Assembly (NCBI GenBank): GCA_030765335.1
Contig: JAVCCU010000020.1
Span: forward strand, 1 to 45,569
DNA from: Candidatus Kaelpia aquatica
GTDB taxonomy: Bacteria; Omnitrophota; Gorgyraeia; Kaelpiales; Kaelpiaceae
DNA length: 45,569 bases
Direction: 5' to 3'
Below the pieces are notes generated by a model that saw nothing but the letters and a program-made list of their open reading frames with translations, was not told the origin of the DNA and ran no database searches. A program made the translations under genes and the position numbers. The first letter of the stretch is position 1. Each line of letters begins with the position of its first letter. Below, in pieces: positions 23,223 to 42,488 of the stretch.

Positions 23223-24059
23223 CTATATTTTTTTAATTTTTTCCAGAATATTTTTATCAACATTGAATGAGTTCTCTTGAGATGGAAAAGAACCATTTAA
23301 AACATCTGAACTAAAACTCTTTAATGCCCCCAATATCTCCTCTTCTAAATTAAGATACTCTTTTACAAATTTCCTCTTTACATCTTCTCCTATTCCAAGC
23401 ATGTCGTGTATTACCAGAACTTGACCATCGCAATGCTTGCCTGCTCCAATGCCTATAGTAGGGACTGAAACAGCCTCTGTTATTATCTCTGCCAACTGCT
23501 GGGGAATACACTCTAGGATAATTGCAAAGCAGCCCAGCTTGTCCAGAAGCAGGCTATCTTTATATATTTTCTCTGCTGAAGATGGTTCTCTACCTTGAAC
23601 CTTATAACCTCCTAAAACAACGGCTGTCTGAGGAGTCAGACCAATGTGGCCTAAAACAGGTATCCCGGCTTTAACTAGAGCCTCTATTCTGTCTCTTACT
23701 GCCTCTGCACCTTCCAGTTTTACGGCATCAGCTCCTGATTCTTTAATAAACCTTCCTCCATTACGCAACGCTTCTTCATTTGAGGTTTGATAAGACATAA
23801 AAGGCATATCGGCTATCAAGAAAATGTTCTTTGCTCCTCTTCGAACTGCTTTTGTGTGATGCAGCATCTCATCCATTGTGACAGGAAGCGTTGAATCGTA
23901 CCCCAATACCACATTACCGAGAGAGTCCCCTACTAAAACAATGTCAATCCCTGCTTTCTCTATCAGCCTCGCAGTTGGATAATCATAGGCTGTGAGCATT
24001 GTGATCTTCTCTCTGCGCTCTTTTTTCTCTTTTATCTGAGGTATAGTTAATTTAGCCAT
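23223..24059 (-). CDS. panB: 3-methyl-2-oxobutanoate hydroxymethyltransferase
   Basis: PanB makes ketopantoate from 2-oxoisovalerate and methylene-tetrahydrofolate, the committed step to pantothenate and CoA. The 278-residue enzyme has the metal and substrate residues expected of the family: D45-S46 in LVGDSLG, D84 in IADMPF and E116 in VKLEG, plus GIGAGKHCDGQVLV. It overlaps the upstream glycosyltransferase gene by 13 bases. No panC or panD is nearby, so this is a lone pathway gene carried at the end of the glycan locus. Confidence 0.96.
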   Translation of the reverse strand: MAKLTIPQIKEKKERREKITMLTAYDYPTARLIEKAGIDIVLVGDSLGNVVLGYDSTLPVTMDEMLHHTKAVRRGAKNIFLIADMPFMSYQTSNEEALRNGGRFIKESGADAVKLEGAEAVRDRIEALVKAGIPVLGHIGLTPQTAVVLGGYKVQGREPSSAEKIYKDSLLLDKLGCFAIILECIPQQLAEIITEAVSVPTIGIGAGKHCDGQVLVIHDMLGIGEDVKRKFVKEYLNLEEEILGALKSFSSDVLNGSFPSQENSFNVDKNILEKIKKI

Positions 24060-24982
24060 CTCTCTTTTATGATCCTCCTTTTTTTAAGGGCATTCTTAAG
24101 CCAGGAGATATCTTTTATGAGGTATAGTATACATAAGGGGTTAATTGAAATCAAGAGAATCAGAAGATAGCTATCGTAGAGCAAGACGCAAGGCAGGTGC
24201 TTCATGTAATCACCCAGAGTCTCATTCTTTATCAACGTTGCATACCTATTCTTTAGATACTGCACCTTTAAGTCATCATTGAGGTTTAAAAACCCAAAGC
24301 GGGATTTTTTTCTCCAGCCTGTCACTCCCCGATAGTGAAAAGCAATAGCACTGGGCTTAAAATACGATCTCCAGCCCCTGTTCTTACCTCTCCAATTTAG
24401 ATCTAAATCTTCCAAGTAGGCCTTGTAAGTCTGGTCAAAATATTCATTCTCTATCTCTATATCCTCTAGCATCTCTCTTCTGTAACAAGCAACTGCTCCT
24501 CCCACTCCCCAAACATATCCTTCACTATAGTTGTTAGAGTCTTTTTCTTTATAACCTCTCTCATAGCCGCGTCTAGTACGTGTTAATATCTGACCTGTTG
24601 AGTCTATAAGTCTTGTGGTCGGGTTTATAAGTTTGCCAGTTGCAGAGCCTATACGCTTATCCTTTTGAAAGACTGAAGTCACTTCTTTAATATAATCTCT
24701 ACCTAAGATAACATCATTATTCATACAGAGTATAAGATCAGCATTAGCAAGCCTTATGCCCTGATTGTAAGGAGTTGCTAGAAACATGTTCTCTCGGTTT
24801 TTAACTATCTTTGCTTCTGGAAATTCTTGTTCGACCATCTCAATAGAACCGTCAGAGGAATCATTATCTATAACTATAATCTCAATATTGCTATAACTTT
24901 GATTTAAAACTGATTTAAGACAGTAGTAGAGATACTCTTTTCTGTTGTAATTTACCACTATAACTGAGATAGATTTTTTCAT
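24047..24982 (-). CDS. GT2 glycosyltransferase
   Basis: The 311-residue protein has the GT-A fold of family 2: SVIVVNYNR at the N-terminus, VIDNDSSDGS, the metal motif N88-N-D90 and the acceptor-side LEDLDLNWRGKNRGW. A hydrophobic C-terminal stretch (about 265-295) should attach it to the inner membrane. Relatives transfer rhamnose or similar sugars onto lipid-linked glycans. It lies 3 bases after a B12/radical SAM gene and closes the glycan cluster. Confidence 0.9.
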   Translation of the reverse strand: MKKSISVIVVNYNRKEYLYYCLKSVLNQSYSNIEIIVIDNDSSDGSIEMVEQEFPEAKIVKNRENMFLATPYNQGIRLANADLILCMNNDVILGRDYIKEVTSVFQKDKRIGSATGKLINPTTRLIDSTGQILTRTRRGYERGYKEKDSNNYSEGYVWGVGGAVACYRREMLEDIEIENEYFDQTYKAYLEDLDLNWRGKNRGWRSYFKPSAIAFHYRGVTGWRKKSRFGFLNLNDDLKVQYLKNRYATLIKNETLGDYMKHLPCVLLYDSYLLILLISINPLCILYLIKDISWLKNALKKRRIIKERWLN

Positions 24983-24985
24983 AGA

Positions 24986-26458
24986 TTATCTTGCTTTAAA
25001 GAGTTTAAAGTAAGAGAGTTCTGTTTTAATACGCCTTAACAGTTTCTCAATCAAGAGCTTCAAGCCATAACGTTTATAACGTTTAGCTACAAAATCAAGC
25101 GGGTGCTCTCTCATTTTATTTATAAAGAAAAGATGGTCTCTTTTTGCAATAGCCATTTTTAATGATCTTTCTATCTCTTTTTTTCCGTAATCGGGATAGT
25201 TTAAGATAGCTGGGCCTCCTCCGTCAAAAGAGTGAGGATCGTTATCTGTAATAAAACCTCTCTCTTTTGCCCAATCATAGAAGGGGGTACCCGGTTGAGG
25301 CGTAGCCAGAGATATCTGCACATTATCCACCAAATCCTGTTTTATAATATGAGATATAAAGTCTATTGTCTGGCCATCTTTTTTAATATTTGAACCAGGC
25401 AATCCAAGCATAAAAGTAGTGTAGGTCTTCAGCTCTATCTCTTTAGCGTAGCTTAAAGTAGTAAGTACCTCATTGATTGAGACAGGTTTAGCTATCGATG
25501 AGGCCAATTCTTCAGAAGCTGTCTCTATTCCGAAGCGAACCTTGTAATACCCTGCTGCTTTCATATGATCCATGCTCTCTCTATCTAAGAATCTCAAATC
25601 GCACATAGCTTCGTATTTTAAGTTATTTAATCCTGAACTTATAATCGCTGACATTAGCTTTTTAGTAAAGTTTTTGCTTGAATTATGAGACTCTTCATCA
25701 AAAAAAATGCCCTCAAGCTGGGGATAGCTATTTTTTAAATACTCTATCTCAGATATAATGTCACCTACTTCGCGAAACCTTTGTTTAGGCTGGTTGTAAT
25801 ACATATTTCTTGCGACACAGAAAGAGCAGTTTCCATAGCAGCCGCGGCTGGCATAGGCCTGAATCTCAAGATATTCCGAACTTGGCTCACCGGGGCTGCC
25901 GTATTCAATCCTCTTTACATCTTCATCTTCTGGCCAAGGCAGCTTTGCTATATCCATCAATAGTCTGCGTTGATTCGGATAGAGTCCGGCTATAGAACTA
26001 TCTTCAGCTACTAAGAACTCAAGTAATGTCTCTTCATACTCTCCAATAGCTACATAGTCTACACCTTTAGAGATGAGATCTTGGGGAAAAGCTGTAGCAT
26101 GTTGGCCAACAAATACTATCTTAGTCTGAATCATCTTCTTTAAGCTCTTTCCAACCCAAAGATTCTCAGATATTGTCCGCGTAGCACTCTCTATTATTAG
26201 CCAGTCCGGATTCTCTTCTAAGATATTACTCAAAGTCTCTTCCTTGTTCCACCTCTTAAGGCAAGGGTCTATGAGCTTGATTTTATAAGGGGTGCTCTTC
26301 TTAAGTAAGGCAGCTGCATAAGCAAGCTCCCAAGGATAATAGTTAAACCAAGACGATAGTTCTTTTACTCCTTCAGACCATCTAGAAGGAGAGTGTATTA
26401 TAAAGCGCCCTAGATCATCTTTACCCACGGAGTTCATAAGCACTATCTTTTTACTCAT
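24986..26458 (-). CDS. B12-binding radical SAM protein (single core)
   Basis: The 490-residue protein has an N-terminal cobalamin-binding-like Rossmann domain (about 1-160; VDYVAIGEYEETLLEFL) and a radical SAM barrel with C207-x3-C211-x2-C214 (CYGNCSFC). The later segments KVRFGIETASEE and TYTTFMLGLPG are typical of class B enzymes. The histidine of classical B12 domains is not evident, as is usual in this class. A C-terminal basic helix (about 455-490, RYKRYGLKLLIEKLLRRIK) resembles linkers in the larger neighbours. It overlaps a GT4 gene by 4 bases. It could be a C-methylase or other radical modifier; the substrate is unknown. Confidence 0.85.
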   Translation of the reverse strand: MSKKIVLMNSVGKDDLGRFIIHSPSRWSEGVKELSSWFNYYPWELAYAAALLKKSTPYKIKLIDPCLKRWNKEETLSNILEENPDWLIIESATRTISENLWVGKSLKKMIQTKIVFVGQHATAFPQDLISKGVDYVAIGEYEETLLEFLVAEDSSIAGLYPNQRRLLMDIAKLPWPEDEDVKRIEYGSPGEPSSEYLEIQAYASRGCYGNCSFCVARNMYYNQPKQRFREVGDIISEIEYLKNSYPQLEGIFFDEESHNSSKNFTKKLMSAIISSGLNNLKYEAMCDLRFLDRESMDHMKAAGYYKVRFGIETASEELASSIAKPVSINEVLTTLSYAKEIELKTYTTFMLGLPGSNIKKDGQTIDFISHIIKQDLVDNVQISLATPQPGTPFYDWAKERGFITDNDPHSFDGGGPAILNYPDYGKKEIERSLKMAIAKRDHLFFINKMREHPLDFVAKRYKRYGLKLLIEKLLRRIKTELSYFKLFKAR

Positions 26459-27552
26459 AGCTCTCTATCTAATATTGATATTAGCTTTTGAGTCTGCCTG
26501 CGATCAGAATAATTTAACACCACACTCTCTCTGGCTGATCTTGAGATCCGAGAATAAAGTTCACTATCTTCTAATATCATCTCTATCTTATATTTAAAAT
26601 CATTCTCATCTTTAGCAAGTAAGCCGTTCTCTCCGTCTTTGATTATGCTTTTAACCTCACCAAACGATGTTGCAATAACAGGTATACCTTTACTCATAAA
26701 CTCTATTATTTTTACCGGAAATTTAGCCTCTGTAAATCTACTCTTCACCTTAAGGGGGAACAACCCTAGGCTTATATTTTCAAGGTACTTAGGAATCATG
26801 GAACCCTCTATCCAGCCTCTGTAGATAATATTTCTAAGCTCTAATCTCTTAGATTCTGCTGTAATCCTACTCTTGTAGTGACCGTCTCCTACCACCTCAA
26901 GTGTAAGATCAGGTAAATCTTTCATTATCTTAAAGAGATACTTTAGGTTGATATAATCTTCCTCTCTGAACATTGTTCCCACCCAGGCTAAAGTCTTAGA
27001 TAAGGCAGTCTTCTCTGTTGTAGGTTTAAACAGTTCAATATCTATTCCTGGAGCAAGATAATAGCTTTTTGGTGTAATAGTAGTTATATAGTCTTGTAGA
27101 TAATGGCTTCCGCTTATACAAAGAGCCGCCTTTCTTGCTGTCTTTCTGAATAGAAATTCTGCTTTTGACCTTGGGAATATACCCTTAAAATAATCGATAT
27201 TCTCCCTAAACTCCCAGTCATCTATATCGTATATAAATTTTATCCTATTTTTAAGGCAAAATAGCAGCGGAGCTAGGGAGTGATAATTAAAACGCTGAAT
27301 TACAAAGAGAGGACATCTATATTGTTTAAACCTGAGGTAAGCCTTTAAATTATAACTTATCTTATCGATTATTGAGAGATACTGCTCTAAGATGCCTGAA
27401 TAAGCTCCAAGATCTGCAGCGTAGGATAGAACATCGGCCCTATATCCGTTCTCTTTTAATATCTTTGTGAAATTATAAGCTCTATACTTTGCTCCAGGGA
27501 GATTGGGAGATTCTCTTGTTATAAATACCAGCTCATAGTCTTTTAAGCTCAT
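26455..27552 (-). CDS. GT4 glycosyltransferase
   Basis: The 365-residue GT-B protein has a C-terminal donor domain with KTLAWVGTMFREED, VVGDGHYKS and the GT4 EX7E-like region FPVKIIEFMSKGIPVIAT. The N-terminal half begins with LVFITRESPNLPGAKYRAY, typical of GT4 enzymes of O-antigen and capsule loci. It overlaps the preceding GT4 gene by 20 bases and the B12/radical SAM gene by 4. It probably adds one sugar of the cluster's glycan on the cytoplasmic face. Confidence 0.88.
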   Translation of the reverse strand: MSLKDYELVFITRESPNLPGAKYRAYNFTKILKENGYRADVLSYAADLGAYSGILEQYLSIIDKISYNLKAYLRFKQYRCPLFVIQRFNYHSLAPLLFCLKNRIKFIYDIDDWEFRENIDYFKGIFPRSKAEFLFRKTARKAALCISGSHYLQDYITTITPKSYYLAPGIDIELFKPTTEKTALSKTLAWVGTMFREEDYINLKYLFKIMKDLPDLTLEVVGDGHYKSRITAESKRLELRNIIYRGWIEGSMIPKYLENISLGLFPLKVKSRFTEAKFPVKIIEFMSKGIPVIATSFGEVKSIIKDGENGLLAKDENDFKYKIEMILEDSELYSRISRSARESVVLNYSDRRQTQKLISILDREL

Positions 27553-28714
27553 AACCCTTAAGGACTCTTCTGTATATATTTATAATATTATCTGCACTCC
27601 AGCTCCAATTGTATCTCTCAAGAGCCCTTCTTCTTGCTAGGACACCCATCTTTGCTCTTAGATCCGGCCTAGAGAGAAGCTCACTTATTCCGCCTGCTAA
27701 GATAATATGGTTACCGGGCTCTACTAATACACCAACCCCTCCGATCATATTTCTAACCTCACCCACATTGCTGGCAACTATAGCCTTACCTGAAGAGAGA
27801 TATTCGGCAAGCTTTAAAGGGCTCTTACATATTGTGATATCATTTTTAGCAAAACAACCTACGCAGGCATCGGCTGCTGCTATATATCTTTTCATTTGGT
27901 TATGAGGAAGAGAGTCAGTAAATATGATCCTATCTGAGAGCCCAAACTCTCTTGCCATGTTTTTAAGCTCTTCTAATCTATAGCCTCCTCCAACAATAAA
28001 GAACATCGTTGTCGGATGCCACTGAATAACAAGCTTTGCAGCATGAATCAATAGTTCAGCATATTGGGCACCATGCAATTGACCAAGATATAAGACTATG
28101 GGCCCATCAATACGATACTCTCTTCTGGTCTCTTCTCCTGAATTCTCAGGCTTAAACTCTTCTGGGTCCGCTCCTACGGGAGCAGCTGTAATCCTCTTTT
28201 TGGATACAGAGTAACCATCTGTTGCAAGCTGGGCAAGTCTTTGACTAGAGAGAGAGATAGAGTCCACAAACTTTGGCAGCGCTCTTTCAAGCATCCAGAT
28301 ATACAGTCCTATAACTGGAGAGGCCGGTCTTCCGTAAAAATATATTTTTGTTTCCCAATCGTCCCAATCATAATGTAAGGGTTTATTTTTTATCCAGGCT
28401 GCTATTACAGCTGGGATAGAGCAATAGTGAAAACATTTTTGGAAATGAACAATATCTGCCCATTCAACTTCATCTATAAGCCTCTTGATATTTTTAAAAA
28501 ATATCCCCAACCCCCTCCTTCTGTCTAAAGTTATTATGCTGATGTTATTATGGCTAAACGGTGAGCTCTTAAGGTCTTTATGGCTAAGCGGGAAATAGGC
28601 TATTCTTATTTCATGGCCGCTCTTCTTGAACTCTTTAGCTATAGCCTTTATTCTTATCGTCCAGGGTTCACTTAAATGGAAAATGTCATGCGGGTGCAGC
28701 ATTAATATCTTCAT
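27533..28714 (-). CDS. GT4 glycosyltransferase (start corrected)
   Basis: The enzyme is 393 residues when started at the ATG at 28714, giving MKILMLHPHDIF.... A longer frame opens at a TTG at 28768, but that would overlap the upstream gene by 49 bases and has no ribosome site. The ATG lies 5 bases after the upstream stop, with GGAAG before it. GT4 features are GPIVLYLGQLHGAQY, FIVGGGYRLEELK and the donor-binding PLKLAEYLSSGKAIVASNVGEV. The N-terminal half carries HYDWDDWETK, a motif also echoed in the next GT4 (YDIDDWEFR). Probable role: extension of the same glycan. Confidence 0.87.
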   Translation of the reverse strand: MKILMLHPHDIFHLSEPWTIRIKAIAKEFKKSGHEIRIAYFPLSHKDLKSSPFSHNNISIITLDRRRGLGIFFKNIKRLIDEVEWADIVHFQKCFHYCSIPAVIAAWIKNKPLHYDWDDWETKIYFYGRPASPVIGLYIWMLERALPKFVDSISLSSQRLAQLATDGYSVSKKRITAAPVGADPEEFKPENSGEETRREYRIDGPIVLYLGQLHGAQYAELLIHAAKLVIQWHPTTMFFIVGGGYRLEELKNMAREFGLSDRIIFTDSLPHNQMKRYIAAADACVGCFAKNDITICKSPLKLAEYLSSGKAIVASNVGEVRNMIGGVGVLVEPGNHIILAGGISELLSRPDLRAKMGVLARRRALERYNWSWSADNIINIYRRVLKGYELKRL

Positions 28715-28719
28715 ATATA

Positions 28720-31700
28720 TCAGCTTCCGGGGAAGATTATTATTCTCCTTATCTTTTTTAAAATCCAAAGATATGTCTCTGCTGCCAAAGTTAGAACTAT
28801 TATCAAAATCAGATAAGGCAACTTTAAGATTCGTTTTCTTGGAATTAAAGCCTCTCCTGAGAAATCTTTTCTCTGCTTAGGAAGGTGTTGAATCCTGTTT
28901 ACAAGAACCTCCAGTCTAGAGATGTCGACTTTATCCTCTTTCTGCTGCTTGCCCTCATCTAGGTTTGTCTCCATAACCTTAAAACCCAGCTCTTCTGCCA
29001 GCTTCAAGAGAGACTCTCCCCTCTCTCTTCTTAAAGTATAATTATTACCATCTTCTGTTTCCCAGAGATAGTGCCAGTTATCATCGGGTAAAGAATTTAT
29101 TTTAAACTCAGAGTAATTTTTATATAAATCCGTACCGGCTATAAGGTGAAGAGTATTAATCGACTTAAGAGTATTAATATACTCTCTGTTGCGTCTGAGG
29201 AAATCTGCTGTTTTCTGAAATTCAGCCTCATCTTCAGATGGAAAACCTATCATGACAAAGAGCTCTGTCTCCATGCCTGCAAGAGATGCTTTTCTCAAGA
29301 AATCTTCAGCTGTCTTAACATCATATGACTTACGCATTCTCTTTAAGACTTTATCAGAGCCGCTCTCTAGTCCAATCTGGAGCTTTACACACCCAGCTTC
29401 TTTCATCTTTTCAAGAAGGGTAATCTCCATATCCTTTCTAGGCATAGCTTCGCCTGTCCACTCTATTTTAAGTCCATCCTCTATGATCTTATTGCAAAGC
29501 TGCTCTAAGATTTGAGGTTTTCCATTTAAGAGCGGATCACAGACCGTAAAATTACTTATACCATTGATATCTTTGTGGTATTTTAACTCTTGGAATATAT
29601 GCTCTGCAGAGCGCGAACGGTAGCCTTTTATAAGCTCATGATTGATGCAGAAAGCACAATTTCCTACGCAGCCTCTAGACCACTCCAAAATAAGAGATTT
29701 CCCCGGATAAAGATTCAGATCAAAATCTTCATAGCTAGGATAGGATATGCTATCTAAATCTTTTATTACCTCTCTCTCTTTTAATCTTCCTGGTTTACCA
29801 TCAGTCACTCTTATTGCTCCAGGGATATCATTGCAATTCTCGTCTTTCATTATCTCAAGGAGTGTCTCTTCTCCTTCTCCAACAACAAAAAAATCTATAT
29901 GCTCTGCAATGTTGTCTATAAATATATTTCTTGAATGTGCTGTCAATGTGGCAGGACCACCTAAGATGATATTTTTTGAGCTATCCTTTGCCTTTATTCT
30001 CTTTATAAATTCTATTGTCAGCCGTTCTTTGGGGTCTACTACAGAGAACCCTATGATCTTAGCTCCGCTCTCTAGTATTTTGTTTACGGTTAGATCTATA
30101 TCTCTATCAAAGATTTTTAAGATAAGATTAAACCATTCTTCATCTCTCCAGAAGTTCTTGTTCTCAACATGCCAGAGATGCTGCAGTTCTTGATCTATAG
30201 AATTGTAAAATTCAATGTTAAAATCAAATACAGCGGGGTCGTAGTTGTTTTTTTTAAGATAGTCTGACAAATATCCAAGCGCTAAGGGCGGATTGTTAAC
30301 ACCCCAAGGAGCTGTTGTAATAAGAGCTACGTCCTTCTTCTTGACCTGAATGCTTTTATCCGGCAGAGCCGTTGCTCCAGTGGTATAAGGAATATTAAGT
30401 TCTCTTAAGAGTTCATGCACTCTTTTAACCCTCTTCATCCTAAAATCAAAGTCATTCCCTCTCCCTATAAACCATTTAACATCAGGACTTTCGCTAGGCA
30501 AGCTGATATTGAACTTTTCAGGGTTTGCGAATATCTCTGAGCCAGCCATTAAGAAGAGAGGATTTACAGATTTAACGTAATCTATGTTCGCTTTATTCAA
30601 CCTTATAAAATCAAGCGTCTCTTGGAAATCATCATCGCTCTCAGTTGGAAACCCAACAATAAAATAGAGTACATTTTGAATGTTTGCTCTCTTTGTTAAA
30701 GAGAGAGCTCTTCTTGCATCTTCGGCTAAGAATGTCTTCCCCATAAGCTTAAGTATTCTACTAGAGCCGCTCTCCACTCCGTACTCTAACCTATAAAAAC
30801 CTGCTCTTTTCATCTTTTTAAGCAAGTCTAGGCTCATATCTCCTCGCGGTATTGCAAGGGCTGCAAGCTTTAGATCAAGAGCCTCTTTTATTATCAATTC
30901 AGATAATTTTTCTAACCATTTTAAGTCAGAATTTATCGATGAATCTACAATAGAGAAGTACTCTTTTTTTAACTCTTTCTTATAGTATTTAAGCTCAGCT
31001 ATTACTCTTTGAGGAGATTTTCTCTTATAAGAAGAGCTCAATATTTTAAAACTGCAGAAACTACATCTGCCTATACAGCCCCGAGAGAGCTCTAAGGAGA
31101 TACTGTTATTCTCTGTATACTCTTTAAGCAAAAACCCTTCATACTTAGGAAAAGGAATCCTATCTAAATTATCTACATTACCAGGCCCTGTCTCTATGAA
31201 GTTGCCGCCTTGAACTATGACAGTATTTTCAACATCGACTATAGGTCTATTATTGGATAATTTATGAGCAAGTTTTAAGATGGTATCTTCGCCTTCTCCA
31301 AGAACCACTGCATCTATCAAATTAAAGTTGCCTAGCATCTCAAAAAACTCGTCTCTCTGCTCTTTGACTGTAACCGAAATACCACCCAATACTATTTTCT
31401 TCTGAGGTTGGCTATATTTTATTTTCTCAATCATCCACTTAAGCATTAGGTACATCGAATTTGTGGGTACTGAGAATGCAGCTATGCCTGAATCGTCGTT
31501 CTTTAAATCATTCTCTATTTCAGAGAATAGATCAGCATACTTCTCCATTAGAGAGTCGATGAATTTTTTATCTCTAAAGTAAAGAGAACAATCCATTCCC
31601 CAATATTTTTTATCATCCTCATTTACAGAGCTATAGATCTTAAGATTTAAGTCCATAATCTTTACTCTATAACCAGATACTCTCAATACCTCAGCTATTA

Positions 31701-32655
31701 CAGCCAGTCCGACCGGAGGCCTTTCAACTCCCCAGGGTGGAGGAATAATTAAGGTTATACTATTATTCTCCCTCTTGGATTCTGTCTGGGCACATTCACA
31801 CTTAAGGCAGATCAGTTTTTTTTCTGCCGGCACCTTACCGTTTATCTGGTCTCTTAAGTTATTATATTTTTTTGAGTGCCAAATATTGTAAAGAGAGTCT
31901 TTTTCAATATTACCCAGTAGAACATCTCTATTCCAATCCATGCAGCAGAGAACCACATCCCCATTTGAAAGAACATGCATCATCTCATCAACCCAAATAG
32001 AGTTGCAGCCATATAGCCCCTCATTTCTTACCTTATCTAACAAAGGGACATTTCCAGCTCTAGATATAGGATGAGAATAGCTGCTTATTCTTTTAATACC
32101 TTTTCTCTTCCAAAAACTGACTGCATCTTCAAATTCCTCTTCTGGCAATCTCTCATTTTTTATAAGAGTAAGCATTATAAAATCAGCTATATCTTTTTTA
32201 TCTCTTTGGGCAATCTTCATGAAATTAGATATATTATTTAAGACCTTTTCTGAATCCAACCCCATGGTCTCCTTAATGGTATTTTCAGTTATTCCATGCA
32301 GGCTAAATCCTACCCAATCTATACCGCTCTCAATAAGTTTAGCACCCATATTTTCATCCAGAAGACTGCCGTTGGTTAAGATATGGACTAAACTCTGAGG
32401 CAGCCTCTTTTTGATATAGGCTATCTTCTTGTCTATCTCCCTATCAAGTAAAGGCTCGTTCATTAAATAAGGCATTACCACTTTCAGATCTTTATGGTCT
32501 TTACACTCATCGATTATCTTTTTAAAGATCTTAAAGTCCATCTGCTGAGATTTTGTTCTCTCTTCAAGATAAGAGTGGGGGCAAAAATAACAACTCCCAT
32601 TGCAGCCTGAAACTGTTTGGATCATAAGATATTTAGGAAAAGCAGCTGTCTTCAT
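28720..32655 (-). CDS. Triple radical SAM protein: SPASM core plus two tandem B12-radical SAM units
   Basis: The 1311-residue protein holds three separate radical SAM cores. Core 1 is at the N-terminus (C18-x3-C22-x2-C25) and is followed by a SPASM-like Cys cluster (C217, C237, C238, C283, C286, C288). Then come two similar units of about 470 residues. Each has a B12-binding-like domain (PPPWGVERPP at about 305 and TAPWGVNNPP at about 781; LGEGEDT and VGEGEET) and a core (C527/C531/C534 and C996/C1000/C1003, both S-R-G-C-x-G-x-C-x-F-C). One membrane helix (about 1279-1299) ends the protein. It overlaps the 1919-residue gene by 4 bases. Single-core enzymes are the norm. The reaction is unknown, but glycan or lipid modification fits the context. 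Confidence 0.9.
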   Translation of the reverse strand: MKTAAFPKYLMIQTVSGCNGSCYFCPHSYLEERTKSQQMDFKIFKKIIDECKDHKDLKVVMPYLMNEPLLDREIDKKIAYIKKRLPQSLVHILTNGSLLDENMGAKLIESGIDWVGFSLHGITENTIKETMGLDSEKVLNNISNFMKIAQRDKKDIADFIMLTLIKNERLPEEEFEDAVSFWKRKGIKRISSYSHPISRAGNVPLLDKVRNEGLYGCNSIWVDEMMHVLSNGDVVLCCMDWNRDVLLGNIEKDSLYNIWHSKKYNNLRDQINGKVPAEKKLICLKCECAQTESKRENNSITLIIPPPWGVERPPVGLAVIAEVLRVSGYRVKIMDLNLKIYSSVNEDDKKYWGMDCSLYFRDKKFIDSLMEKYADLFSEIENDLKNDDSGIAAFSVPTNSMYLMLKWMIEKIKYSQPQKKIVLGGISVTVKEQRDEFFEMLGNFNLIDAVVLGEGEDTILKLAHKLSNNRPIVDVENTVIVQGGNFIETGPGNVDNLDRIPFPKYEGFLLKEYTENNSISLELSRGCIGRCSFCSFKILSSSYKRKSPQRVIAELKYYKKELKKEYFSIVDSSINSDLKWLEKLSELIIKEALDLKLAALAIPRGDMSLDLLKKMKRAGFYRLEYGVESGSSRILKLMGKTFLAEDARRALSLTKRANIQNVLYFIVGFPTESDDDFQETLDFIRLNKANIDYVKSVNPLFLMAGSEIFANPEKFNISLPSESPDVKWFIGRGNDFDFRMKRVKRVHELLRELNIPYTTGATALPDKSIQVKKKDVALITTAPWGVNNPPLALGYLSDYLKKNNYDPAVFDFNIEFYNSIDQELQHLWHVENKNFWRDEEWFNLILKIFDRDIDLTVNKILESGAKIIGFSVVDPKERLTIEFIKRIKAKDSSKNIILGGPATLTAHSRNIFIDNIAEHIDFFVVGEGEETLLEIMKDENCNDIPGAIRVTDGKPGRLKEREVIKDLDSISYPSYEDFDLNLYPGKSLILEWSRGCVGNCAFCINHELIKGYRSRSAEHIFQELKYHKDINGISNFTVCDPLLNGKPQILEQLCNKIIEDGLKIEWTGEAMPRKDMEITLLEKMKEAGCVKLQIGLESGSDKVLKRMRKSYDVKTAEDFLRKASLAGMETELFVMIGFPSEDEAEFQKTADFLRRNREYINTLKSINTLHLIAGTDLYKNYSEFKINSLPDDNWHYLWETEDGNNYTLRRERGESLLKLAEELGFKVMETNLDEGKQQKEDKVDISRLEVLVNRIQHLPKQRKDFSGEALIPRKRILKLPYLILIIVLTLAAETYLWILKKIRRIIIFPGS

Positions 32656-35600
32656 CTATCCTTATTTACCCTTTCATGGATCTGTTCGTTATGCATGAAA
32701 TTATCACATTCTTTATAGCAGCCCATCTTCTCAAAGAAAGGGTGATCTTTTTTGAAGTTCTTTGCCCGATGCCTAAAACCATTATACTCCTTGGAATACC
32801 AGATATCAGAGAGTGATGAACTGTTGATATTACCCATAACATAATCTACTCCCCTGCAGCAGGGGACAGCAGAACCATCTGCTAAGATACGCAGAAAATA
32901 CCAACCGACATAGCATGGAATTCTATCAATCCTCTTTTTGTCGTAATCACCCACTGTATTATTTAAGCTCAGTCTTTCAATAAAACCGCTGAGATTTTCT
33001 ATCTCTATCCTGCTATCTCCAAGAGAAAAGATAATGCTCTTGAGGTCAGAATTCAATTGCACAAGTTGTTCTTCTTTTAAGAGCAGGATGTCTGTCTCCC
33101 CTTTTAATGTATCTATAAGAGTGAAATATAGAGCATCCGACACTGTCTCTAAAGCAAAATCTACCATCTCTTTCATTTTCTTAAAATTCTGATTACTAAT
33201 AACATTTGCTATTGTAACCTTGGTATCATTAGCTTTAATAGAATTAAAAAGAGTTATATTTTCTTTTATCTTAAGAAAATCTTCTTCTTTTGCCCCAGGG
33301 TGCAGTAAAGCATAACTCTTGGGGTCTGGAGCCCAGATACTCAAAGCAAGTTCATCCAAGTTTAAGCTTGCAAGTTTTTTTACCCTCTCTCTATCTAGAC
33401 CGTAAAAATTGCTTGTAATGCAAGTCTTAATGCCATCTGACTTGGCTATCTCAATTAATTCAAAGACCCCTTTATAAAGCAACGGCTCCCCTCCGCCTGT
33501 AAAACGTATTGTCTTAAGCCCCATAGCTATTGCTTCCTTTATAAAGCTTTTAGCGCTATCTAATGGGATCTCCTTATTTAACCATTCCGATGAAGGCTTA
33601 TTCTCCTTAAGGTAAGGCGAGTAGAGCCAGCAGCCGTTACACCTCAGCTGACACCTATTGGTTAGGTCCATAACGACATGCTCCGGACCCTGAAAAGCCT
33701 TCCTGGATGTTGCAATACCTGCTATTACCTTATCTTTTGACTGAGCTTGATTTATTTCCTTAAGATTCTCTCTTATTCCCTCCCTCTCCCTCTTCTTATA
33801 TCTGGCTATTAATCTTAGAATAAAAGTTTCCAGTTTTGTTAAGGACATAATCTTCTTGTGCATATGAAGATTACGTCCGATATCATCACAACTCTTATAA
33901 CAACCTGCCTCTTCTGCATTTAAATCATTACCGATAATCTTAAAAAAAGGATCTTCTTTTTTATAGCAAAGCATTTTCTCTCTGCAATATATCTGCTTAG
34001 GCGAGTTCCAGATTTCACGGAAGCTATCCTCATAGATATTACCTATAGGAAATCTATGTGATTTTAAGCAAGTATTAATGTTGCCGTCTGGGAGTATTCT
34101 GACAAATAGCCATCCAATATAACAAGGCATTGAATCAATTATATTTCTATCATACTTTGCTTCTCTAACAGCTTTGTCTTCGCTCAATCTTCTCATGAAC
34201 TGATCAAACCTAAAAAGGTGGACTCCTTTATAATCGAAGTTAGAAGCTAGCTCTTTAGCTATTTCACCACAAGTATTGTAAAGATATTCCCTCTCTTCCT
34301 TATTCAAAGAGAGCTTGTCGGTCTTACCTGGAATAGTATCTATGAGTGTAAACTCAACAGATTCACAGCAGCTAGTGCGTGCAAAGTCTATCATCTCTTT
34401 TATCTCATGATAATTAATGTTGGATATTACCTCGTAAAGCTTTACTAATGGAGCTCTGCCTTTATTACGATTAAGGTAATCCAGATCCTCTTTTATTTTA
34501 TAGAATGTCTTTTCGTTTTTATTTGGATGTGTATCAGAGTAAGTTTTTGCGCTTCCGGCCCAGATACTTACTGTCAGATGGTCAACTCCGATTGCTATTA
34601 GGCGATCGATCTTCTCTTTATCAAGCAATGTAAAATTTGTATTTATATAGCAAGTTAATCCCAATCTTTTTGTATATTCTAAGGCTTCCATTATATCAGG
34701 ATGCATAAAAGGCTCTCCGCCACCAGAATAATAGACCTCTTTTGCACCCATATTTTTTACATCGTCTAAAATGTTTTTGAGAGTATCAAGAGGTATGTAC
34801 TGTTTTTTTAATTCAGAAGGCATTTTTTCCTCTCCTAATAACGGCGAATTACACCAGCACCCTATACAATCATTATTACAATTGTTAGTCAGGTCTATCT
34901 GAACATGGAAAGGACCCTTGTAAGCATATCTTGAGTCAAATATTCCTATGATATCCATATAACTATTGATGAAATTTACGGGTTTTAAAAATTTTAAAAC
35001 CCTCTTTAGTGTGAGTTTTACTCCATGTGTTTTGAACGACTCTTTTAGTATTCTTAGAGGATCTTTTTTGCTATAGAGCGTTGACGGGTCACAGAGATAT
35101 TGTTCTCTTTTTTTGTTTTTAATCTTTAGTTCAAATCTGTCTATATGCGGAATATGGCGAGAGGAGTATATCTCTATACTATGAACCCCTGCATCAAAAT
35201 AATATTCAAGCTCTTTAAAAGACTTAAGATTCTTATTCCCCCAGCCACCTGTTGTAGCTTTTGCAATTTTACTAAGGTACTCATTGTCTATTCTAAGCTC
35301 GACAGGCCTAGGCACCTCAGAAGCATATTTAATATAGAATTCATAGAATCCGGGAGTTGAAACTTTTATATTATACTTTGCATACCCAAAACCAACCCCT
35401 CCATCTATAACTATCTCATTACCAAAAGAGTTGCTGTCTCTATTAAAATTACCGTATTTAAAACTTTTAGCCGGTATTATAATATTTTTCTTGTGGTATT
35501 TAACCTCCGAATAATTAGAGTTTCGGGGTTTAATGTTATCCAATAACTCCTTGTGGATATTTAGATTCATCCCGAGATTATCACAGATTTTATAGCAGTC

Positions 35601-38411
35601 TATAGCTGAGAAATAACCATCTTTTTTAGAGAGGTTCTTACAGTTATAACGGAACCTATTGTAGGGTGTAGATGAGAATATATCCTGGAAGCGATTCTCT
35701 TTAATATTTCCAAGCATCAGATCTTCCGCCTTACAGCAGGGCTCAACATCACCGTTAGTGGTTATCCTTGTAAAATACCATCCTACATAACAAGGTAACG
35801 AATCTACAAACTCCCCATCTAAATTTAAACATTCTCTGGATATCGAATCTACACGCCTCAGGAAAGTCTCAATCCCCAAAATCCTCAAAAGGTTTATTTC
35901 AAGCGGTGTCTTACTATCGTCTTTATAGCATTTCTGATATAACTTACACTTTTTGCATATATCCTGATTAAAATAATAAATTATACATCTTATATCTATA
36001 GGTGGACGGGTTCTTCTTTTCTCGCTGTACTTTCCGCTAGGGCATCTTGCCAGTCTTACACCGTTAGTAAGGCTAAATCCTTCTTTGAACTTATTTAAAA
36101 ACCTACCGAAATCTTTAAGCTCATTTTTATGTGAAGAGGACTCAAAAACTTCAATGGTTTCATTTGATATAAAGTCTGGCACATAATCTTTACGATCTTT
36201 AAATTGAATAAGCATCTTATTGATGATAAGAGCCTCTTTTTTTGTAATAGCCAGGTGTTCTGTTGTATCCTTTATTGGCTCCATTAACTGAAACTCAAGA
36301 GAGTCTACTCTTCTATCTAATGCAAAATCCAACATTTGCGGGATATTGCAATAGTTTGCCTTAGATATTACATTATATATTTTGACAATCGGTCTATCGT
36401 CTTTTCTTCTCTTAAGCAAGTATTCTATATTTATAGCTATTTTCTTAAACATGTCAGGATTTGACCCTGGGTGTGTCTTAAGGTAGGTCTTTGTATCTCC
36501 TGCCCAGAGACTAATAGTGATATAATCCAACTTAAGTCTAAGGAGCTCGTCTATAAGCCTTTTGCTGAAAAGAGTAAAGTTAGTCACAAGGTGTAGGCGT
36601 ATTTTTTGAGTCTTTATGTACTCAACTATTTCCAATAAATTAGGATGCATTAACGGCTCTCCACCACCTGAAATCTGTATCTCTTCTACTCCACCCTTAT
36701 GTAGCTCATCAACAATATCTCTTATAGTGTCTAAAGATAGCTGCTCTTCCAATCTCTTTCTATTTATATTTTTTAAGTAAGGTGAATACAGCCAGCAACC
36801 TATACAACTTAAATTACATTTATTAGTTATATCTATGACTACTATCTTAGGACCACTATAAATAGTATGGCCGCTCAAAATACCTTTTAATACAGCATTG
36901 TTCTTGGCCTGTTGTTGCCCATCATCTTCTTTAATTTTTTTTAACTGGCGCTTTGTATGTAAGTAAGATATCTTTTTCTGTAATGCAAATTTAGTACCGT
37001 ATAAATTTAAACAATTCCAAAATGATTTTACCTCTTCGATTTTAGTCTTCTTAAGTAGAGAGGTTACTTTATTCTGGTTCCATATTTTATAAGCATTAGC
37101 TAGAGATATTTCCAGGTTATCTGAGCTGAGATCGGTGAGATTTACAACAGACGCTTTATGTCCATCAAAATAGCTCCAATCAGATGGCTCGCTCCACCCT
37201 TTCTCTTTAAGGCTTTTAAAATAACTTGTACCGGGGAATGGAGTGGTCAAAGAGAATTGAACCGAGTAAGGATTTAACTCGCAAGCTAAAGCTATTGTTT
37301 TTTCTATTGTTTTTTTTGTCTCTCCAGGCAGACCAAAAGTAAAGGTAAGATGGGTCTTTATACCTAAAGAGTGGGTTAATTCAATCATTTTAAGCGTGTA
37401 TTTTAAATCCATATTCTTGTTAGCATTGTTAATTAACTCTTGAGAAGACGATTCAACCCCATACTTTACGCTATATAAACCTGCTTGACGTAAGCTAAAA
37501 AGTAACTCTTTATCCATAAGATCAGCTCTAGCCATAATGGCCCAAGGGAATCTCAGCTTTCTTTTTCTAATCTCAGCTGCTATTTCCATCAAAAACACCT
37601 TATTTACATTTGCAGTATCATCATCAATATATATAGACTTAAAGCCACTCTTTTTTATGAGATATTCCATCTCATCTACTACTTTGAAAGCATTCCGTGT
37701 TCTGTAAGAATTACCGTGATACATTACGTGAGGCCAAAGGCAAAATATACATTTAAAAGGACAGCCTCTCGATGTCCACATCTGGACAGATGGCAGAGGC
37801 ATACCGCCGGGAGCATCAACGTAGTGCTCCATAAAAAGACCTTCTCTCTGCGGCCAAGGAAGAGTATCTAGATCTTCTATTAAATCAGCTTGGCAGTTTT
37901 TAACTATCCTGCCATCCTCTCTATATATTATACCCTTTACTTCAGAAAGAGATTTCTTGTCTCTTAAAGCAGTTGCTAGCTCAAGAAGTATGTTCTCATA
38001 CTCTCCAATTAGGATATAATCAATAAAGTCATTTTTTTTAAAAAAATCTATACTTTGTATGTTTTGCTCCGGACCGCAGAATGCTACAGGAGCTATATTT
38101 CTTATTCTTTGAGCAAGAGATAAGTCATGCCCTAAAGAAGGAGTTGATGTCTCAGCAACTATCAAATCTGGTTTCTCTTTCTCGAGAGTTCTTATAAAAT
38201 CAGTTACCTCTATCTGTTCTGCTATTGCATCTACAAGTATTATGTTGAATCCATTCTCTTTCAATAATGCTGCTGCATAACCTAAGAAAAAAGGGTAAGG
38301 TAAATAATCTCTTTCGTTACTTGAGTGTCTTAAATGAGGCCAACGTGAACCCGCTCTTACTCCCCAGAGTCCGTGACATTTCCAAGGCATATTTAGTAGT
38401 GCTACTTTCAT
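32652..38411 (-). CDS. Quadruple radical SAM protein with internal CBM6/35-like domain
   Basis: The 1919-residue frame is open over 5.76 kb. Module 1 is a B12-binding/radical SAM unit (about 1-450; C217/C221/C224 in CPFKCIFC). Modules 2, 3 and 4 are SPASM-type cores, C532/C536/C539, C1178/C1182/C1185 and C1587/C1591/C1594. Each has D-x-T-N-x-C-x3-C-x-G-C-W, a GGGEP SAM motif and a C-terminal Cys cluster with PCY-[IV]-GW. Between modules 2 and 3, residues about 995-1097 form a jelly roll like CBM6/35 (TPGFYEFYIKYA, VELRIDNEYL, FDAGVHSIEIYSS, HIDRFELK). The product lacks a signal peptide and should be cytoplasmic. It probably performs several radical modifications on one glycan or glycolipid, or serves as a scaffold; this is inference. 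Confidence 0.9.
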   Translation of the reverse strand: MKVALLNMPWKCHGLWGVRAGSRWPHLRHSSNERDYLPYPFFLGYAAALLKENGFNIILVDAIAEQIEVTDFIRTLEKEKPDLIVAETSTPSLGHDLSLAQRIRNIAPVAFCGPEQNIQSIDFFKKNDFIDYILIGEYENILLELATALRDKKSLSEVKGIIYREDGRIVKNCQADLIEDLDTLPWPQREGLFMEHYVDAPGGMPLPSVQMWTSRGCPFKCIFCLWPHVMYHGNSYRTRNAFKVVDEMEYLIKKSGFKSIYIDDDTANVNKVFLMEIAAEIRKRKLRFPWAIMARADLMDKELLFSLRQAGLYSVKYGVESSSQELINNANKNMDLKYTLKMIELTHSLGIKTHLTFTFGLPGETKKTIEKTIALACELNPYSVQFSLTTPFPGTSYFKSLKEKGWSEPSDWSYFDGHKASVVNLTDLSSDNLEISLANAYKIWNQNKVTSLLKKTKIEEVKSFWNCLNLYGTKFALQKKISYLHTKRQLKKIKEDDGQQQAKNNAVLKGILSGHTIYSGPKIVVIDITNKCNLSCIGCWLYSPYLKNINRKRLEEQLSLDTIRDIVDELHKGGVEEIQISGGGEPLMHPNLLEIVEYIKTQKIRLHLVTNFTLFSKRLIDELLRLKLDYITISLWAGDTKTYLKTHPGSNPDMFKKIAINIEYLLKRRKDDRPIVKIYNVISKANYCNIPQMLDFALDRRVDSLEFQLMEPIKDTTEHLAITKKEALIINKMLIQFKDRKDYVPDFISNETIEVFESSSHKNELKDFGRFLNKFKEGFSLTNGVRLARCPSGKYSEKRRTRPPIDIRCIIYYFNQDICKKCKLYQKCYKDDSKTPLEINLLRILGIETFLRRVDSISRECLNLDGEFVDSLPCYVGWYFTRITTNGDVEPCCKAEDLMLGNIKENRFQDIFSSTPYNRFRYNCKNLSKKDGYFSAIDCYKICDNLGMNLNIHKELLDNIKPRNSNYSEVKYHKKNIIIPAKSFKYGNFNRDSNSFGNEIVIDGGVGFGYAKYNIKVSTPGFYEFYIKYASEVPRPVELRIDNEYLSKIAKATTGGWGNKNLKSFKELEYYFDAGVHSIEIYSSRHIPHIDRFELKIKNKKREQYLCDPSTLYSKKDPLRILKESFKTHGVKLTLKRVLKFLKPVNFINSYMDIIGIFDSRYAYKGPFHVQIDLTNNCNNDCIGCWCNSPLLGEEKMPSELKKQYIPLDTLKNILDDVKNMGAKEVYYSGGGEPFMHPDIMEALEYTKRLGLTCYINTNFTLLDKEKIDRLIAIGVDHLTVSIWAGSAKTYSDTHPNKNEKTFYKIKEDLDYLNRNKGRAPLVKLYEVISNINYHEIKEMIDFARTSCCESVEFTLIDTIPGKTDKLSLNKEEREYLYNTCGEIAKELASNFDYKGVHLFRFDQFMRRLSEDKAVREAKYDRNIIDSMPCYIGWLFVRILPDGNINTCLKSHRFPIGNIYEDSFREIWNSPKQIYCREKMLCYKKEDPFFKIIGNDLNAEEAGCYKSCDDIGRNLHMHKKIMSLTKLETFILRLIARYKKREREGIRENLKEINQAQSKDKVIAGIATSRKAFQGPEHVVMDLTNRCQLRCNGCWLYSPYLKENKPSSEWLNKEIPLDSAKSFIKEAIAMGLKTIRFTGGGEPLLYKGVFELIEIAKSDGIKTCITSNFYGLDRERVKKLASLNLDELALSIWAPDPKSYALLHPGAKEEDFLKIKENITLFNSIKANDTKVTIANVISNQNFKKMKEMVDFALETVSDALYFTLIDTLKGETDILLLKEEQLVQLNSDLKSIIFSLGDSRIEIENLSGFIERLSLNNTVGDYDKKRIDRIPCYVGWYFLRILADGSAVPCCRGVDYVMGNINSSSLSDIWYSKEYNGFRHRAKNFKKDHPFFEKMGCYKECDNFMHNEQIHERVNKDR

Positions 38412-39175
38412 TTTTTAATAATCGATATTTCTAGTTCAAAAAGTCTGTATTCACCTGGCCTGTATTCAACTTCGCCTTCCATGATTGCTTGCAACAGCCT
38501 GCCGTTGAGATGATCATCTGTATTTTGCACTATTGTTTTAGAAAGATAAAGTGAGTCAATTATTTTGAATTTTAAATCGGGGAAATTTAAAAGACTATCT
38601 TTAATACTTATAGTTAAGGGGGTTTTTCTTTTAATCTTAAACATCTCTTGCCATTGAAAGTTATCCCAAGGTAAATCTAACCTTTTCTTATCCAAAATTA
38701 AACTATCGTAGATGTTGTTAATAATTAAACCTGATTTTATCTCTTCAATCACAATGTGATTCTCAACTATAAGCGTGACTTTCCAAATAACGCTCCTCTT
38801 TTTAAGAGTAAAAACCCAATTACACTTAAGAGGTAAGTTCCACCACCTCTCTTTGACGATAAGAGAATCTCCCTCTCTTTTAAACCTAAATTCGGCTTGC
38901 GTTGAATCATGCCATTTTTCTAGATTTTTAACAGCACTATGGAATCCGCAGTTGTTTGTGATAAAATTTTTCCCTACTATCAGGTCTATACCGTTTGAGT
39001 TCGTCACTACAGTGATATCATCTTTAAAGATTAAGATTGGCACTACTTTCTTCTTTTTTTTCTCAGCTTTTTTAAAAATTAAATAATCAAAAATTTTAAT
39101 AAAAGTTATGATTATTCCTTTTTCTCTTAAAAAAGATGTTATTTTTTTTAAAATAATTTTAACTCTTTTAATCAA
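38408..39175 (-). CDS. Beta-rich protein related to the ABC ATPase C-terminal domain
   Basis: The 255-residue protein begins at TTG (39175), overlapping the upstream gene by 8 bases; no in-frame ATG is near. Residues 1-43 are basic and amphipathic (FLREKGIIITFIKIFDYLIF, then poly-Lys), suited to membrane-surface binding. Residues about 48-255 are beta-rich, with W-H-D-S (88-91), W-W-N-L-P (111-115), F-P-D-L-K-F (198-203) and GRLLQ. The same landmarks occur in the same order in the neighbouring 219-residue protein. No known family is recognised. Its place between the exporter and the radical SAM genes suggests that it binds or modifies the exported glycan. Confidence 0.75.
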   Translation of the reverse strand: MIKRVKIILKKITSFLREKGIIITFIKIFDYLIFKKAEKKKKKVVPILIFKDDITVVTNSNGIDLIVGKNFITNNCGFHSAVKNLEKWHDSTQAEFRFKREGDSLIVKERWWNLPLKCNWVFTLKKRSVIWKVTLIVENHIVIEEIKSGLIINNIYDSLILDKKRLDLPWDNFQWQEMFKIKRKTPLTISIKDSLLNFPDLKFKIIDSLYLSKTIVQNTDDHLNGRLLQAIMEGEVEYRPGEYRLFELEISIIKK

Positions 39176-39827
39176 TTTTCAACACACTCTCTAATGACAT
39201 AGCACAATTATCTTCAATCAAACCATCTTCTGTATTTACAAAAAGCAACTGAAGTATTCTAGCTGAATCTTCAAAGCCTGTATTTTCAATTACATTTAAA
39301 GTGTCTTTTTTGGTTAAAGTTGATATCCAAGTTAAGTCTGGAACAGAACTATTAGTAGATTTAAATGTTATCTGACTATCTTTTAGTTGAGGCATAGACC
39401 AGACTCTATCCCAAAGCAAGCCTTTGAAATTAGAGAAATATTCTGGAAATTTACCTTTAACATATCCTTTTACTACAAAATCAGTATAATAATCTATAAG
39501 CATAAAATTTTGTTGAACCATACTTACGATTAAATCATTCAAATTATCCCATTTTATAGACCAATGCAACTTACCGTCTTCGAACTTAAAATACCAGCTC
39601 TGTCTATGAGGAAGATTTGCCCATTCTCCATACAAAGATATACTATTTTTATCTGAATCTAGTATTTGCCATATTGCAAAACGCGAATCATACCAAGCGT
39701 TATTGTGGTAAATGCTGGAATATAATCCACGGCTTCTACTTAAAATGATGCCTTCATAGCTTAGGGTGGCGTAACCTAAAAGAAAATCCAACTCCATGCC
39801 GTCTTTTTTTATGCAGTTTCTTTTCAT
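39168..39827 (-). CDS. Beta-rich stand-alone domain related to the ABC ATPase C-terminal domain
   Basis: The 219-residue protein has no signal peptide. Its landmarks are W-Y-D-S (45-48), W-A-N-L-P (69-73), W-x-F then W-S-I-K-W, V-P-D-L-T-W (162-167) and ARILQLLF (189-196). They match the 255-residue neighbour, and more weakly each half of the ABC ATPase's C-terminal region. It overlaps that ATPase gene by 4 bases (ATGA). I see no catalytic signature. A role as a glycan-recognition or enzyme-partner module is the simplest inference. Confidence 0.75.
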   Translation of the reverse strand: MKRNCIKKDGMELDFLLGYATLSYEGIILSRSRGLYSSIYHNNAWYDSRFAIWQILDSDKNSISLYGEWANLPHRQSWYFKFEDGKLHWSIKWDNLNDLIVSMVQQNFMLIDYYTDFVVKGYVKGKFPEYFSNFKGLLWDRVWSMPQLKDSQITFKSTNSSVPDLTWISTLTKKDTLNVIENTGFEDSARILQLLFVNTEDGLIEDNCAMSLESVLKID

Positions 39828-41714: not shown

Positions 41715-42488
41715 TTAATTCCTCTTCAATATATATTTCTCTGTTTTTCTATATAGTAGGTATCCAAATAATATAAAAACAATACTTATAATGCAAGTAT
41801 ATGTATAGGTATTTTTTAAAAAAGGACTGTAATTGACAATAAGTATACACCTGTATAGCTCGATAAAATATGTTAAAGGGTTCAAAAATATCAGAAACCT
41901 TATGTTTTCAGGGACCATATAAGGCGAATAGAAAACGGGGGTAAGCCAGAAGAGAGTCATTAAGAGAACTCCAAGCAGATGCCGAAAATCTCTGAAATAT
42001 AGGTTTACTACAGCTACTATCAATGACAGTGCAGCTGCAAATATTGCAGCCATTAGAATCGGCAAAATCAGTAATGGAAATTTAAAAATCAAAACCTTGT
42101 TGAAGAATATAAATACAGGTAGCAGGAAGAGAATGGCTATTATATGCTCAATTGTATTTGAAAGAACAATGGATAGCGGATAGATAATCTTTGAAAAGTT
42201 GAACTGATTCATAATGGACTTATCTTTTATAAATGCCTCTGTAGATTCGACTAAAACATTAGAAAAATAGAGCCAGGGGAGCAGAGCTGAAAGAACAAAA
42301 ACATGAAAGTTTTCCTTAGAGACCCCAAGTACTTTGACAAAAACAAAACCTATTGCGCCCATAAGAAGAAGTGGTATTAATCCAGCCCAAACTATCCCCA
42401 GCAATGTAGAGGCGTATTTAAAGCGTATATTGCGGACGGTTAAGTCTTTAAGGTTTTTTATGTTTCTTAATATCAGCTCTTTTTTCAT
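41715..42488 (-). CDS. Wzm-like ABC-2 polysaccharide permease
   Basis: The 257-residue protein has six hydrophobic segments and the ABC-2/TagG-Wzm pattern: TVRNIRFKYASTLLGIVWAGL near the N-terminus (split across an amphipathic helix and TM1), VVNLYFRDFRHLLGVLL in the middle and FWLTPVFYSPYMVPE before the last helices. Such permeases form the membrane channel of O-antigen, teichoic acid or capsule exporters. It is next to its ATPase and overlaps the upstream GT2 gene by 4 bases. Confidence 0.92.
   Translation of the reverse strand: MKKELILRNIKNLKDLTVRNIRFKYASTLLGIVWAGLIPLLLMGAIGFVFVKVLGVSKENFHVFVLSALLPWLYFSNVLVESTEAFIKDKSIMNQFNFSKIIYPLSIVLSNTIEHIIAILFLLPVFIFFNKVLIFKFPLLILPILMAAIFAAALSLIVAVVNLYFRDFRHLLGVLLMTLFWLTPVFYSPYMVPENIRFLIFLNPLTYFIELYRCILIVNYSPFLKNTYTYTCIISIVFILFGYLLYRKTEKYILKRN
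41719..41724 (-). promoter_or_regulatory. Ribosome binding site supporting the GTG start of the ABC ATPase gene
   Basis: GAGGAA precedes the GTG at 41713 by five bases and spans the end of the permease gene. It favours this GTG over later in-frame starts. Confidence 0.5.

Follow-up and report, generated by a model that had tools for sequence, protein, structure and literature searches.

A conserved three-core radical SAM protein encoded beside a Wzm/Wzt-type exporter in Candidatus Kaelpia aquatica

How does a protein come to hold three radical S-adenosylmethionine (SAM) cores in one chain, and what might it do in an operon of glycosyltransferases and an exporter? The question is raised by a gene of Candidatus Kaelpia aquatica (GCA_030765335.1, contig JAVCCU010000020.1; the 45,569 nt analysed are called the window below), which lies at 28720..32655 on the minus strand and encodes 1311 residues in a single uninterrupted frame. 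Its start overlaps the stop of an upstream gene for 1919 residues by four bases (ATGA) and is preceded by AAGGA. An earlier reading of the letters alone (hereafter the original prediction) had proposed a SPASM-type radical SAM core followed by two tandem units, each with a B12-binding domain and a radical SAM core, and a membrane helix. The three cores are indeed recovered: Pfam recognizes three Radical_SAM (PF04055) stretches (in all 232 bits against a cut-off of 29.5, E 5e-69), with CxxxCxxC motifs at C18-C25, C527-C534 and C996-C1003, and to the prediction we add the strand.

Here the three units are termed A, B and C from the N-terminus. Unit B (residues 299-772; 30340..31761, minus strand) joins a B12-binding-type Rossmann domain to a core with the motif CIGRCSFC (527-534), and unit C (residues 773-1240; 28936..30339, minus strand) joins a B12-binding domain to a core with CVGNCAFC (996-1003). 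A tail (28720..28935, minus strand) with one predicted membrane helix (about residues 1273-1303, with the hydrophobic peak at 1281-1299) closes the protein, and such a tail is common to single-unit homologs of C from other families. Aligned to each other by BLASTP, residues 299-772 and 773-1240 are identical at 145 of 461 positions (31%, 20 gap positions, 244 bits, E 7e-80). The similarity extends beyond the cysteine motif, since both halves of the two units still align once the motif and its surroundings are removed: relative to shuffled sequences, z is 33 for the N-terminal (B12) halves and 64 for the C-terminal ones, while pairing the N-terminal half of one unit with the C-terminal half of the other gives z -1. 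The shared motifs likewise occur as described, namely PWGVERPP/PWGVNNPP, GEGEDT/GEGEET and SRGCIGRCSFC/SRGCVGNCAFC in B and C, respectively. An AlphaFold model of residues 299-1311 (mean predicted local distance difference test score, pLDDT, 87.9) draws two complete units of Rossmann domain plus triosephosphate isomerase (TIM) barrel followed by the helix; the placement of B relative to C in this model is not reliable, as its predicted template modeling score (pTM) is 0.54. Taken with the alignment and the hydrophobic peak, the predicted succession of two such units and a membrane helix thus stands.

Several solved B12-type enzymes, namely MgmA (9ccb), AprD4 (6fd2), OxsB (5ul4), CysS, TsrM and TokK, display the same combination of Rossmann and radical SAM folds as B and C (Z 20-30), but share only 14-21% identity with them and are each single-unit proteins. 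The model of unit B is closest to MgmA (Z 29.9 over 374 residues, 2.9 A), followed by AprD4 (Z 28.6, model residues 1-468), and that of unit C is closest to CysS and TokK (Z 22-23). In profile searches unit C retrieves OxsB first (1e-21), then MgmA (1e-18), CysS (1e-15) and AprD4 (1e-11). Its B12-binding domain is recognized by Pfam at residues 854-935 (PF02310, 55.1 bits against a cut-off of 32.1); the Rossmann domain of unit B is homologous to it by the z 33 alignment given above and belongs to the same fold class by its Z of 29.9 to MgmA.

Unit A (residues 1-298; 31762..32655, minus strand) consists of a core with the motif CNGSCYFC (18-25) and a C-terminal auxiliary-cluster domain of the twitch/SPASM kind. 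The SPASM-type label of the original prediction holds insofar as Pfam detects a SPASM domain (PF13186) at residues 221-286 (50.4 bits against a cut-off of 21.5). The auxiliary cysteines, at positions 217, 237, 238, 283, 286 and 288, and the matches in the PDB, which are to BtrN only (4m7s, E 3e-15, across core and tail), nevertheless fit a one-cluster twitch domain better than a full SPASM domain. The alignment of unit A with the 2-deoxy-scyllo-inosamine dehydrogenase BtrN includes both the core and the one-cluster twitch tail of the latter and leaves residues 140-220 unmatched; BtrN is a single-core protein of 250 residues, whereas unit A is fused to two B12-type units.

The fused protein is conserved. 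Under the genome labels of this analysis, in which G000 is the genome of Ca. K. aquatica itself (locus labels beginning with L are likewise our own), G001 of the same genus has a counterpart of 1311 residues with 85% identity, and G003 of another genus one of 1310-1312 residues with 58% identity; that of G004 has 1273-1282 residues, and G002 holds shorter pieces that end at contig ends. The A-B-C protein is kept throughout its family, and the same order recurs outside it in G279 (1319 residues), from another family of the same class, so that a search for relatives of the fused protein, as the original prediction had suggested, returned proteins with two B12-type units both within the family and beyond it. 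A scan of the genome contigs with the full 1311-residue protein found one weak, unrelated locus, and a phage collection gave only weak matches. The ratio of non-synonymous to synonymous substitution rates (dN/dS) against G001 is 0.12 overall, 0.09-0.15 in the individual units and 0.26 in the tail, indicating purifying selection. An artefact of sequencing or assembly, in which a stop between separate genes was missed, is ruled out by the 1310-1312-residue frame in G001 and G003 and by the low dN/dS throughout. The same data bear on the idea that at least one core is catalytically dead and serves as a substrate-binding scaffold, which would be compatible with any of the functional readings considered below: inactive copies are frequent in multi-core proteins, and the B12 domain of unit B is weakly recognized by Pfam, but no intact relative has lost any of the three CxxxCxxC motifs, and dN/dS is as low in one unit as in another. 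We consider a dead core very unlikely.

The original prediction also derived the two B12-type units from an internal duplication. Their homology bears this out, whereas a recent origin within this gene does not hold. A tree of 75 units joins B to the first units of the G018, G279 and G126 proteins (support 100), and C to the last units of these three proteins, an A-C protein of G237 and stand-alone genes of G092 and G366 (support 99). A tree constrained to unite the family's own B and C units is worse by 111 log units and is rejected by the approximately unbiased (AU) test (p 1.4e-7). With the nearest relatives of each unit lying in other families, this places the split between B and C before the family itself and rejects a duplication within it. 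All B-type and all C-type units form one group with support 97 in the 75-unit tree, and with 85/76 and 66 under other samplings; B and C are thus likely sisters. The pattern fits an old gene duplication, the products of which would still be fused in some lineages and separate in others.

The gene is part of an operon of about 20 kb, all on the minus strand, in which neighboring genes lie no more than about 5 bases apart. The operon is colinear with those of G001 and G003 and, for the part sequenced, with that of G004. It opens with a glycosyltransferase family 2 (GT2)-like gene (42485..43363; read from sequence, kept in G001), followed by a Wzm-like permease of the ABC-2 type, ABC denoting ATP-binding cassette (41715..42488; PF01061, 45.5 bits), and a Wzt-like ABC ATPase (39824..41713; PF00005, 75 bits) with a long C-terminal region. 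An ABC-2 permease and an ABC ATPase extended by a C-terminal beta domain, set in a glycosyltransferase operon, together characterize a Wzm/Wzt exporter; the canonical C-terminal Pfam domain of Wzt gave no match up to E 0.1, and the tail instead holds sequence resembling the next two genes. These encode stand-alone mutarotase-like beta domains, here termed bs (39168..39827 and 38408..39175). Then come the 1919-residue four-core gene (32652..38411) and the three-core gene, followed by two GT4-type glycosyltransferases, a single-unit B12-binding radical SAM gene (24986..26458) that adjoins the fused genes in G001, G003 and G004 as well, and, at the operon end, another GT2-like gene (24047..24982; read from sequence, kept in G001 and G003). 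The annotated frame of the first GT4 gene (27533..28768), the commonest neighbor of unit C in other families, overlaps the end of the three-core gene; its start is probably near 28714, since the orthologs align from residue 19. The second GT4 gene lies at 26455..27552 (PF00534, 72 bits). The 1919-residue protein is composed of a B12-type unit resembling AprD4 and HpnJ (4a), a SPASM-type core, an insert resembling a carbohydrate-binding module (CBM) and two further SPASM-type cores; AprD4 is the nearest solved protein of 4a, matching it over its whole length (E 1e-20). Elsewhere in the window, two genes read from sequence adjoin each other: one (12110-12619) encodes a bactofilin-type-looking protein with a C-terminal excisionase-type helix-turn-helix, and the other (11745-12098) a similar helix-turn-helix joined to a membrane helix. 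A secreted-looking protein (3-1397) crosses the window edge; the end that lies within the window carries a repeated segment, VETATVVYSTGGAMEWQSSSIVGQELA.

Pfam does not recognize the bs domain. Of the two stand-alone copies, which belong to one family, the first (219 residues) was modeled (pLDDT 92, pTM 0.89) and adopts the supersandwich fold of galactose mutarotases (Z 17.5 for 9ayu, 17.3 for the aldose 1-epimerase 3nre), a fold found mostly in carbohydrate enzymes but also in the periplasmic domain of YidC. In its own genome bs is confined to this operon and to a fusion with a C-type paralog on contig 38. The latter (G000:C38, L047:8398-11331) is a second C-type radical SAM protein, of 977-984 residues, joined to two mutarotase-like domains; it adjoins an asparagine-synthase-like gene and a gene for a large membrane protein and is kept in G001 and G003. 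Among bs-bearing class genomes in both samples, about 55 of 61, as counted by eye, have a C-type match at 1e-60, compared with 124 in the full set of 384. The bs domain constitutes an undescribed domain family, a marker by which further loci of this kind can be located.

Fusion had been proposed as the rule in this locus, and the adjoining four-core gene agrees, as do related loci. We ran the module profiles over about 75 loci of the phylum, which were chosen around relatives, and the counts are thus not a genome-wide rate: 80 of 304 motif-bearing radical SAM open reading frames have two or more cores, 17 have three and 3 have four. The tree of B12-type units implies at least 13 changes between the fused and stand-alone states and 24 changes of architecture. 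The A module forms a single clade (100/99) and is partnered with B-C, with C, or with another B12 unit and a mutarotase-like domain, or else stands alone beside them (G196). The cassette as a whole, comprising Wzm/Wzt, bs, two kinds of B12-type radical SAM units, BtrN/SPASM-type radical SAM units and GT4, occurs in two or more classes of the phylum (with G416, G421 and G431 representing the others), either as separate genes or as dozens of differing fusions; the parts are mostly single genes in G061, G068 and G149, while G344 has a bs-4a-SPASM-C fusion of 1680 residues and G158 a bs-4a-C fusion of 1261. The exporter ATPase itself is drawn in: G013 encodes a Wzt-bs-bs-4a-bs-SPASM protein of 1902 residues (L045:1067-6775), which unites the ATPase with radical SAM cores, and G124, from another family of the same class, a Wzt protein of 1856 residues with five bs domains and a SPASM-type core (L122:530-6100). 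Within five genes of Wzm, WecA-like genes (PF00953) occur in 12 of 30 loci, and a flavoprotein gene is near Wzm in 18 of 30. Other arrangements include a row of some ten neighboring SPASM-type radical SAM genes in G184, interspersed with two of the B12 type (L108:2479-19988), a similar run of about eight beside Wzt/Wzm in G421 (L123), and reversed arrays of 890-1197 residues, in which a B12-type unit precedes an A-like or SPASM core (L041, L112, L115, L117, L121).

Every module belongs to a known superfamily, and for a chain that holds two radical SAM cores there is a known precedent in FbiC, the fused CofG/CofH of F420 biosynthesis. FbiC makes a cofactor and is not known to have a SPASM or a B12 domain; unlike the three-core protein, it is not part of an export cassette. 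A literature search that covered few subscription journals, and hence does not prove absence, yielded no description of proteins with three or four cores, of a radical SAM-Wzt fusion or of such a cassette.

What, then, would the three cores act on? We favor, with moderate confidence, the proposal that the protein is a membrane-anchored enzyme of three radical SAM active sites and part of a cytoplasmic assembly line, which would rebuild the sugars of a lipid-carried glycan before export by Wzm/Wzt. The glycosyltransferases of the operon would build the glycan on a lipid carrier, and the BtrN-like core A and the B12-type cores B and C would perform successive radical steps on it, candidate chemistries being dehydrogenation, deoxygenation or dehydration, epimerization, or methylcobalamin-dependent C-methylation by B and/or C. 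The fusion and the C-terminal helix may keep these sites close to one another and at the membrane, possibly allowing channeling; the mutarotase-like domains on Wzt and its neighbors would recognize the finished glycan, which the Wzm/Wzt-type pump would then export. The substrates of BtrN, AprD4 and OxsB are aminocyclitols, aminosugars or a nucleotide sugar, and the pairing of AprD4 with paromamine is named in the title of the matched structure; that these are the nearest solved proteins of A, 4a and C, respectively, argues for a glycan substrate. So do the fusion of Wzt to radical SAM cores in G013 and G124, the likeness of the bs fold to carbohydrate enzymes, the WecA-like genes near Wzm and the recurrence of the parts across families and classes. 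The genome of Ca. K. aquatica has two WecA-like (PF00953) genes on contig 26. The cell probably takes up corrinoids, since the sole cobalamin riboswitch of the genome (68 bits; G000:C35:10939-11163, L051) precedes a TonB-dependent receptor gene.

A parallel is offered by Wzm/Wzt pumps in which a modified glycan end is recognized via a carbohydrate-binding domain on Wzt (PMC9445017). In Escherichia coli O9a the glycan-modifying enzyme is a protein of two activities (PMC3482155), and the likeness lies in a cytoplasmic enzyme, WbdD, modifying a lipid-linked glycan while an extra domain of Wzt recognizes the product (PMC9445017, PMC3482155). WbdD, however, combines a kinase with an ordinary SAM methyltransferase, in place of which we find radical SAM cores, and the known tail domain of the O9a Wzt is here replaced by mutarotase-like domains.

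Several observations weigh against the glycan-rebuilding proposal. That the nearest solved protein acts on a sugar is weak evidence, as sampling in the PDB is thin, and the B12-type radical SAM proteins close in sequence also include peptide and protein methylases. The B12-binding domain of unit B lies below the Pfam threshold; AprD4-type enzymes retain the Rossmann domain without using cobalamin, and by this precedent unit B need not depend on B12. The operon in the window further lacks the WecA-like and flavin adenine dinucleotide (FAD) genes that precede Wzm in many other loci.

The NCBIfam matches, of which the best 25 of 62 were considered throughout, include no equivalog at its cut-off for the three-core protein: BchE, HpnJ, PhpK, ApyD and MJ_0865 are all far below theirs, and the top match is TIGR03975, a radical SAM C-methyltransferase of ribosomally synthesized and post-translationally modified peptides (RiPPs), with 249.7 bits. 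Together with the protein methylase MgmA as top structural match and the frequent role of SPASM enzymes in peptide maturation, this raises the possibility that the cores C-methylate and cross-link a ribosomal peptide which the ABC pump exports. The TIGR03975 score, however, is under the cut-off of 281.85, the close packing of the operon leaves no room for a precursor gene, no peptide-recognition domain was retrieved by the Pfam search, and the pump is of the Wzm/Wzt type without a peptidase, with mutarotase-like domains as fused partners; we regard peptide maturation as unlikely. Unit 4a, in turn, has HpnJ as one of its best matches below threshold (248 bits, cut-off 577.6), and the tail helix places unit C at the membrane, as would suit modification of a membrane lipid (a hopanoid, an ether or another head group) that the pump exports. 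This we hold to be quite improbable, as GT4 and GT2 genes, carbohydrate-type domains on Wzt and the CBM-like insert point to sugars and the operon has no lipid synthesis gene. BtrN and AprD4 are aminoglycoside enzymes, and the cassette might instead make and export a secreted, aminoglycoside-like small molecule rather than a surface polymer; but the exporter is of the polymer type, WecA-like lipid-carrier transferases adjoin many cassettes and the cassette spans at least two classes and many families, which leaves this alternative with little credence.

Returning to the glycan-rebuilding proposal, the recurrence of the parts in differing fusions suggests a bolder extension, which we put forward only tentatively: the cassette could be a megaenzyme-like radical SAM assembly line, in which at least five interchangeable modules are shuffled, duplicated and joined to one another in the manner of polyketide synthases to yield a lineage-specific rebuilt sugar polymer of the cell surface. 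Those modules would be the BtrN-like, SPASM-type and two B12 types of core and the mutarotase-like recognition domain, which would also be fused with the exporter ATPase.

While a single core is nearly universal among radical SAM enzymes, three- and four-core proteins are conserved here and linked by fusion to a glycan exporter. This gives rise to a concrete prediction of radical chemistry on lipid-linked glycans, in bacteria known mostly from metagenomes. If true, sugars with unusual carbon skeletons would come within reach, and the channeling of substrate between radical enzymes could be put to the test.

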